Below are positions 7,750-26,600 of a stretch of DNA of 64,000 nucleotides, piece after piece. Each line of letters opens with the position of its first letter. The stretch's first letter is position 1. The notes beneath the pieces are model-generated. The model made no database searches and had not been told where the DNA came from. It saw nothing but the letters and a program-made list of their open reading frames with translations. Source of the stretch: Pseudoxanthomonas daejeonensis (GTDB taxonomy: Bacteria > Pseudomonadota > Gammaproteobacteria > Xanthomonadales > Xanthomonadaceae); assembly GCF_010093205.1 (NCBI RefSeq), contig NZ_PDWN01000014.1:1-64000 (forward strand), given 5' to 3'. Position numbers and translations under genes: made by a program.

Positions 7750-7790
7750 CGCTCCACGAAGCAGGAGCGGTGGGGTGACCGAAGAGGTTC

Positions 7791-7876
7791 GTTGCGACAC
7801 CTCCCGACTCCATGTCCCCCGGCCACGACCTATGGCCGCGGCCTCCTCCTTTACTTCCGTCGGGAGGCATCGCAAC
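7791..7876 (+). promoter_or_regulatory. Candidate structured RNA element before puuB (copy 1)
   Basis: Outer stem: bases 7791-7797 pair with 7870-7876 and 7800-7808 pair with 7859-7867. The core (7809-7858) holds CCATGTCCCCCGG, a small hairpin (GGCCA at 7821-7825 with TGGCC at 7833-7837) and GCGGCCTCCTCCTTTACTT. A second copy with the same core but a different, still paired, outer stem lies before puuC (26437-26536). It lies in the transcript between the ligase and puuB. Function unknown; it could be a cis-acting RNA or a dispersed repeat. Confidence 0.5.
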
Positions 7877-8010
7877 GGGCCTTCCGGACGTGGCTTGGCG
7901 CCCTTCGTTGCGGAGCCGCTTCAGAAATTGCGAGGACTCCATGCCATCAAATGCGGTAGCTCGGCCTGGAAATTCCCTGGGACGTCCTTTTTTCGCGGGA
8001 GGGTGATGCC

Positions 8011-26356: not shown

Positions 26357-26436
26357 TGGAATCTCCAGATCGTCAGCGATCGTGTCCGCGCAAGCGGAAA
26401 CCGTGTGCCTTATCCAGCGGCCTCGCCACGCACCCG

Positions 26437-26536
26437 CGATCCGGTGCGAGGCCTGCCGACGGCAAGTAAAGGAGGAGGCCGCGGCCGCAGGCCGGAGCCG
26501 GGGGACATGGACGTCGGCAGGCCTCGCGCCGGATCG
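26437..26536 (-). promoter_or_regulatory. Candidate structured RNA element before puuC (copy 2)
   Basis: Bases 26437-26460 and 26513-26536 form a 24-bp stem with a single mismatch. The core between them, read on the minus strand, has CCATGTCCCCCGGC, a small GC hairpin and GCGGCCTCCTCCTTTACTT, matching copy 1 at 7791-7876. It reads in the sense of puuC, between the regulator stop and the puuC start. Confidence 0.5.
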
Positions 26537-26600
26537 CCGCCAGCCGCCCATCCCCGCGCTGGAAGCGCCCGAGGACCACAAAGGGCCGAACTGCAGTCCA

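Follow-up and report, generated by a model that had tools for sequence, protein, structure and literature searches.

The 64,000-nucleotide stretch of Pseudoxanthomonas daejeonensis DNA analyzed here (the window; contig NZ_PDWN01000014.1, positions 1 to 64,000) carries two copies of a palindromic element, both of them single units rather than inverted pairs. Copy 1 is neighbored by a gene resembling glutamine synthetase III or gamma-glutamylputrescine synthetase and by a gene for an FAD oxidase, and copy 2 by PuuR-like and PuuC-like genes; the sequence-only reading of the locus had named these genes as given or closely so, but all of the matches fall below curated cut-offs. That reading had further described a common core of the form TGTCCCCCGG-[hairpin]-CCTCCTCCTTTA, a small inner hairpin and two outer stems that differ in sequence yet remain paired, all of which we recover at the expected positions (Table 1). 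The stems had been put at 18 and 24 bp, and they are indeed paired, but the unit of the family as a whole is a palindrome of about 110 nt in which arms of about 31 bp enclose an asymmetric core, with the segment closest to the core often mismatched.

Table 1. Features of the two repeat copies and their host gaps in the window
Feature	Position	Strand	Remarks
Copy 1 of palindromic repeat	7779..7888	- (G-rich folding strand)	R1 covariance model match, 78.6 bits, E 5.1e-13
Conserved core, copy 1	7813..7853	+	C-strand TGTCCCCCGG...CCTCCTCCTTTA = G-strand TAAAGGAGGAGG...CCGGGGGACA
Inner hairpin, copy 1	7821..7843	n/a	
Left outer arm, copy 1	7781..7812	n/a	Partner 7855-7886
Right outer arm, copy 1	7855..7886	n/a	Partner 7781-7812
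Copy 2 of palindromic repeat	26432..26541	+ (G-rich folding strand)	R1 match, 84.7 bits, E 2.4e-14
Conserved core, copy 2	26467..26507	-	C-strand on minus
Inner hairpin, copy 2	26477..26499	n/a	
Outer arm (lower coordinates), copy 2	26434..26465	n/a	Partner 26508-26539
Outer arm (higher coordinates), copy 2	26508..26539	n/a	Partner 26434-26465
Site 1 gap	7750..8010 (261 bp)		Copy in 0/14 congeners with both flanks found
Site 2 gap	26357..26600 (244 bp)		Copy in 0/13 congeners with both flanks found; 26-406 bp between flanks

The R1 covariance model used throughout was built from 38 diverse copies, with both window copies among its rows. At one fixed geometry the two copies form 21 and 22 of 23 Watson-Crick pairs, as against 16 for the runner-up over 63,700 window positions, and GGCCTCCTCCTTTACTT with up to three mismatches occurs twice in the window where 0.04 occurrences are expected. 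Folding z-scores of the two copies are -5.4 and -6.0 on the strand favored by the sequence-only reading and -6.3 and -7.1 on the opposite one. A search of the whole window against Rfam gave no match at gathering cut-offs, and at E values up to 1 the matches of nine loci, all of them far below cut-off, were to miRNA families and mraW alone.

The mismatches that interrupt the palindrome reveal which strand folds. Read on the C-rich strand, the inner stem holds 133 A-C mismatches vs. 21 G-T, a ratio that becomes 93 to 6 among the 115 copies with less than 75% arm identity and persists at stricter redundancy (43 vs. 2 at 65%; 12 vs. 2 at 55%); the inner hairpin itself shows 20 vs. 1. Since an A-C mismatch on the C-rich strand is a G-U or G-T wobble on the other, the folding strand is the G-rich one. 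The asymmetry weakens in the stem's outer half (80 A-C vs. 31 G-T at 75%; 18 vs. 16 at 55%), and in the set from one Stenotrophomonas site it is reversed there (16 A-C vs. 37 G-T). That site, described further below, carries an inverted pair of units, so that both core orientations can be read on a single chromosome strand: 6 A-C and 1 G-T mismatches occur in the left hairpin, which has the C core, and 3 A-C and 18 G-T in the right hairpin, which has the G core (related rows; the left count omits L311 and L322 for an indel shift, and the right count omits L326, where the left hairpin was matched instead). The kind of wobble thus follows the orientation of the core, and a mutation bias of the chromosome strand is therefore not the explanation. 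The fold is kept on the G-rich strand, opposite to the sense of the next polyamine gene in which the element had originally been read.

The polyamine connection itself dissolves once the same gene pairs are inspected in congeners. We examined 16 of them per site and recovered both flanks in 14 for site 1 and 13 for site 2, none of which holds a copy. At site 1 the aligned flanks are 21-66 bp apart in 10 of the 14 and enclose 158-1033 bp of other DNA in the remaining 4, and at site 2 one congener (G012) has a 21-nt relic of one arm; a search of the congener loci that allowed up to three mismatches in each half of the core returned the genome's own copies and four chance matches with six mismatches. 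Filled and empty orthologous sites, as looked for in miniature inverted-repeat transposable elements (MITEs), are accordingly found at both window positions. In the P. daejeonensis genome, R1 yields 13 matches at nine sites, and there are ten occurrences of the core CCTCCTCCTTTACTT when one mismatch is tolerated. The ten proteins adjoining six of the seven other sites (the seventh, on contig C1, was left out of this count) are unrelated to polyamines: lipoyl synthase, a member of the lipoyl ligase family, CTP synthase, enolase, an iron-sulfur subunit, a response regulator, a LysR regulator, an RND efflux protein, a PALP enzyme, and an M1 peptidase. Both window copies do precede genes resembling polyamine genes, the observation from which a cis-regulatory RNA of polyamine catabolism had been proposed; however, congeners lack the element between the orthologous genes, other copies lie beside unrelated genes, and the folded strand is antisense to the genes in question, so that a polyamine riboswitch is rejected and this reading retains practically no chance of being correct. 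The alternative offered alongside it, a structured dispersed repeat, is borne out by the many copies, their intergenic position and the insertions missing from orthologous gaps. Within the broader account that we develop below, the polyamine genes are probably incidental neighbors.

The repeat is dispersed both within and between genomes. In a set of relatives, 15 of 60 genomes (P. daejeonensis included) have R1 matches, 14 of the 15 belonging to its genus, with 0 to 24 matches per genome; ten named genomes, chosen for holding the motif, carry 4-108 copies each. A scan of GTDB genomes for the exact core returned at least 119 stretches, among which, counting the matches listed and going by their record titles, at least 61 fall in Burkholderiales, at least 24 in Lysobacterales, at least 8 in Rhodocyclales and Nitrosomonadales together, and at least 10 in other beta- and gammaproteobacteria, with at least 11 not assigned to a taxon and at least 5 labeled Bacillus. 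All five Bacillus stretches (L060, L088, L097, L144, and L156) come from one assembly, G105, labeled Bacillus subtilis SK7B5; this label is apparently wrong, as the genome, which holds 108 R1 matches, was grouped under the genus to which Stenotrophomonas maltophilia D5.1 belongs. The distribution across Lysobacteraceae, Burkholderiales, and Rhodocyclales-type bacteria is patchy: the exact core pattern is present in 4 of 200 genomes from the Hydrogenophaga order and in 2 of 274 from the window's class, counting the query genomes, and in the family to which Hydrogenophaga flava belongs 56 of 120 genomes have R1 matches at E ≤ 1e-8. Among viral contigs the exact core was found in a single stretch, and blastn with two pair queries against plasmids gave short partial matches in three records, a weak test since the arms of the repeat are free in sequence. 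Several copies at L407-L412 (genomes G761, G732, and G727) have a much longer inner hairpin and a unit of 131-134 nt with an unchanged core, and at L105, L159, L370, and L380 the unit or pair is tandemly duplicated, the period being roughly 100-370 bp.

Across this family the arms differ between copies and nonetheless stay paired, and the covariation of the outer stem is overwhelming. Stem positions 8-29 are paired in 65-96% of 168 distinct copies vs. 27-69% when arms are shuffled between copies, with pairing decaying from position 30 onward; in the 38 nonredundant rows 84.8% of cells are paired vs. 52.7% after shuffling, with double changes in 480 cells vs. 155 shuffled (0/500), and the corresponding values for 45 model-found rows, which call for caution because the rows were fitted to the model, are 97.2% and 63.0%. 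In G105 the palindrome reaches about 45 bp. At the Stenotrophomonas locus alone, the left hairpin can be read in 21 genomes, which show 16 different arm pairs; 10 of these rows are free of mismatches over 19 positions. The sequence-only reading had taken a conserved core within a changed but paired stem as the sign of a selected RNA structure; the pairing is real, but template switching can match arms too and probably supplies part of the covariation, so that covariation alone does not establish a regulatory RNA here.

Template switching is also brought to mind by a second property of the repeat, namely that its core can invert between its arms. In one ortholog of the Stenotrophomonas locus (L326) the core of the right hairpin is reverse-complemented between unchanged GACAAA/TTTGTC arms, whereas the 21 other readable orthologs keep the usual orientation (1 inversion in 22 right hairpins). 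In G105, where 40 loci were taken of the 108 matches, two arm subfamilies, A and B, form pairs, and 17 such A-B pairs show all four combinations of core orientation (6, 6, 3, and 2). The unit also has an internal loop whose strands, in the 45 model-found copies, read T-N-R-R-S-G-R-GGA and GG-R-GGACA. Its two middle purines are A/G in 38 of these copies and G/A in 7, with no other combination; across 354 distinct copies, many of them found via the exact core, the counts are A/G 328, G/A 13, A/A 9, C/G 3, and G/G 1, where the G/A rows may have few origins (7 at less than 80% arm identity, 3 at less than 65%, and 1 at less than 60%). A coupled swap of the two purines is thus suggestive only.

Homogenized arms and inverted spacers are both reported outcomes of template switching between inverted repeats in the excerpted accounts of PMC8604942 and PMC8794818, and both are seen here. 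It could be argued, then, that the repeat is a mutational by-product and nothing else, its arms matched and its center inverted with no enzyme and no function involved. Such a process should, we infer, restore Watson-Crick pairs and ignore the orientation of the core, leaving G-T and A-C mismatches about equally frequent; what is found is 6 G-T vs. 93 A-C, and a kind of mismatch that changes with the core. Nor does it explain the same core across bacterial orders, the A-G/G-A exchange in the loop or the spread of the repeat, and we consider template switching unlikely to be the whole story. The inverted repeats that it is reported to maintain share the homogenized arms and inverted spacers but are single loci, whereas the repeat described here is a dispersed family with strand-specific folding.

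The genomic placement of the copies bears on whether the G-rich strand acts as an RNA. For 88 islands (from the GTDB loci and the window) genes were called on both sides with a custom, unbenchmarked script, 37 further islands at locus edges being left out. None of the 88 lies mostly within a called gene; 54 are in co-directional gaps, 31 in convergent ones, and 3 in divergent ones, the last being underused in view of their 23% share of intergenic bases (26,565, vs. 24,252 convergent and 62,436 co-directional). No neighboring gene recurs at most loci: an all-against-all comparison of 813 called proteins from 119 loci gave components of at most 23 proteins in 16 loci. The 44 single copies in co-directional gaps have their C strand in the direction of the genes in 23 cases and against it in 21; together with the 31 islands in convergent gaps, this lack of an orientation preference among many copies counts further against the polyamine RNA. 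A transcribed G-rich strand might instead give a structured RNA, such as a stabilizer of mRNA 3' ends or a small RNA, or the intermediate of an element that moves through RNA. Wobble pairs and folding of the G strand would suit an RNA, the unit often sits downstream of genes (for 43 single copies, the same-strand gene upstream lies at a median distance of 57 nt), and BRE, a repeat of betaproteobacteria, is described in excerpts of PMC3110155 as overlapping small RNAs that are transcribed in Bordetella. However, co-directional gaps show no bias toward the G strand, 14 of the 20 single copies in convergent gaps have the C strand in the sense of the nearer gene, G105 shows scrambled core orientations, and Rfam holds no match, all of which leaves an RNA a doubtful candidate for the acting form.

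The 31 convergent islands could also be seen as bidirectional transcription terminators or insulators between converging genes. The Stenotrophomonas site, matched in all 81 genomes searched, with the gap extracted from 46 loci and 23 aligned, speaks against this: by inspection the inverted pair is flanked there by two separate, convergent, intrinsic-terminator-like hairpins with T-runs, and the same hairpins are kept in four orthologs (L340, L341, L343, and L345) that have no pair. Likewise, inspection of the 38 alignment rows shows no U-tract after the unit. A terminator role, disfavored chiefly by this one site, is accordingly very improbable. Species differ at the site, some having extra tandem copies and others no pair or a different palindrome that starts with GTAG, and much of this variation looks like old presence followed by loss and duplication rather than recent movement. 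Other palindromes, several of them starting with GTAG as REPs do, are found in the same gaps at L207 and L210 (orthologs of site 1) and at L337, L340, and L346 (the Stenotrophomonas site); gaps of this kind apparently serve palindromic repeats as common landing places.

Pairs account for 22 of the 88 islands, and in 21 of the 22 the C-strand cores face each other (+-), separated by spacers of 37-71 bp (42-57 bp in 19 of 21; in the window's genus spacers are more variable, at 39-155 bp). Inverted dimers in intergenic DNA are what is looked for in REP elements mobilized by RAYT enzymes, and single-strand folding also agrees with a repeat of the RAYT or TIRYT (Y1 HUH) transposase type. Moreover, the unit holds GGGGGACA, and GGGG[AT][CG]A[CG] is typical of most TIRYT end repeats in the excerpted text of PMC6006769. 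Owing to this REP-like layout and end motif, Y1 transposases were sought. Applied to 29 PF01797 loci, R1 gave weak palindromes that did not exceed 32.3 bits, many of them matched on both strands, as compared with 68-110 bits for 45 units of the repeat; the core motif was absent from the first 14 of these loci, and a search for the TIRYT end motif around Y1 loci revealed no link to the repeat unit. Among these loci no unit stands beside a Y1 gene, 2 of 10 copy-bearing genomes lack PF01797, and the GT[AG]G tag has no fixed place at the hairpin foot, reaching at best 4 of 38 rows, or 13 of 45 model-found rows inside the arm. What does precede the core immediately on the 5' side is GAAG or GAAA, and the inner hairpin is preceded by AGGA in 38 of 38 rows. 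A RAYT/TIRYT partner was therefore rejected among the loci searched, and membership in such a REP family appears improbable. The weak palindromes themselves, most of them on both strands, lie among other places at L163 (1047-1318 and 1986-2187), L165 (1324-1430 and 1982-2088), L298 (46-540), and L308 (1333-1401 and 1940-2021). At L295, on either side of a Y1 gene from S. maltophilia D5.1, two palindromes (1295-1336 and 2072-2113) are each formed by facing GGGGTCAGA(T/G)CCCTTTCGC motifs with a spacing of about 41 bp.

Set against known systems, the repeat behaves much as REP dimers and MITE-like repeats do. REP, BIME, and REPIN elements (GTAG- or CGTC-tagged and RAYT-linked) are likewise intergenic, palindromic, and hairpin-forming, often as inverted dimers with 20-100 bp spacers (excerpts of PMC3733652 and PMC6006769), but they measure 20-40 bp; the present repeat has about 110 nt, arms free in sequence, a conserved, asymmetric and invertible core, no fixed GTAG tag, and no linked RAYT found. 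The MITE-like repeats YPAL, RPE, ERIC, NEMIS, and CIR, which are mobile, are also intergenic long stem-loops of about 100-200 bp, CIR consisting of two arms joined by a linker (excerpts of PMC2229807). Here, in contrast, identity across genera resides in the core and structure rather than the arms, and in a unit that is an inverted repeat throughout neither terminal repeats of a known insertion sequence nor target duplications are in evidence. No clean target-site duplication could be defined at the window sites or the Stenotrophomonas site, where insertion ends are undefined and the window insertions exceed one unit. BRE, described from Bordetella, Polaromonas, Delftia, and Rhodoferax, is similar in scale (about 90 bp), high GC content, chromosomal and mostly intergenic location, variable presence, and overlapping hosts; it differs in measuring 75-91 bp in Bordetella, in forming direct tandem arrays, and in that some copies lie within coding sequences (compared by description only, from excerpts of PMC3110155). 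BRE was also the nearest report in a literature search by sequence string and topic, in which no description of this core appeared among the matches listed, and the excerpt of a triplex-motif paper (PMC4666352) contains nothing on these hosts.

In light of these results, we propose that the element is a dispersed, noncoding, and nonautonomous palindromic repeat of bacterial chromosomes, of the REP/MITE-like kind, whose folded G-rich strand is recognized by a putative enzyme, and we hold this to be the probable explanation. An enzyme supplied in trans would recognize the folded G-rich single strand through its purine-rich internal loop, the form recognized most likely being single-stranded DNA exposed during replication or repair, and would copy or move the unit; template switching of a polymerase between the arms may in turn help to match them and cause the inversions of the core. 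Two groups of ten genomes each, probably with one genome in common, were searched for PF01797 and yielded no mobilizing enzyme.

Beyond this proposal, we entertain as a speculative extension, itself rather unlikely, that the repeat represents a new class of structure-recognized mobile element. The internal loop of the G-rich hairpin would here be the address for a putative recombinase, built of two GG-R-GGA strands with a coupled A·G/G·A center and possibly forming a two-tier G-quadruplex capped by a duplex, and the element would have spread across bacterial orders by its fold and loop rather than by an end sequence, since arm sequence is unconstrained and the core can invert. The two GG-R-GG strands across the hairpin recall, as we presume, quadruplexes of the GGAGG type.

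The repeat serves as a warning that even overwhelming covariation is insufficient to prove a regulatory RNA. It also provides a natural system, present in beta- and gammaproteobacteria in hundreds of copies, where the two signs of template switching, matched arms and an inverted center, occur alongside a fold specific to one strand, and, if an enzyme does read the folded strand, it would offer a compact model for structure-guided mobility.
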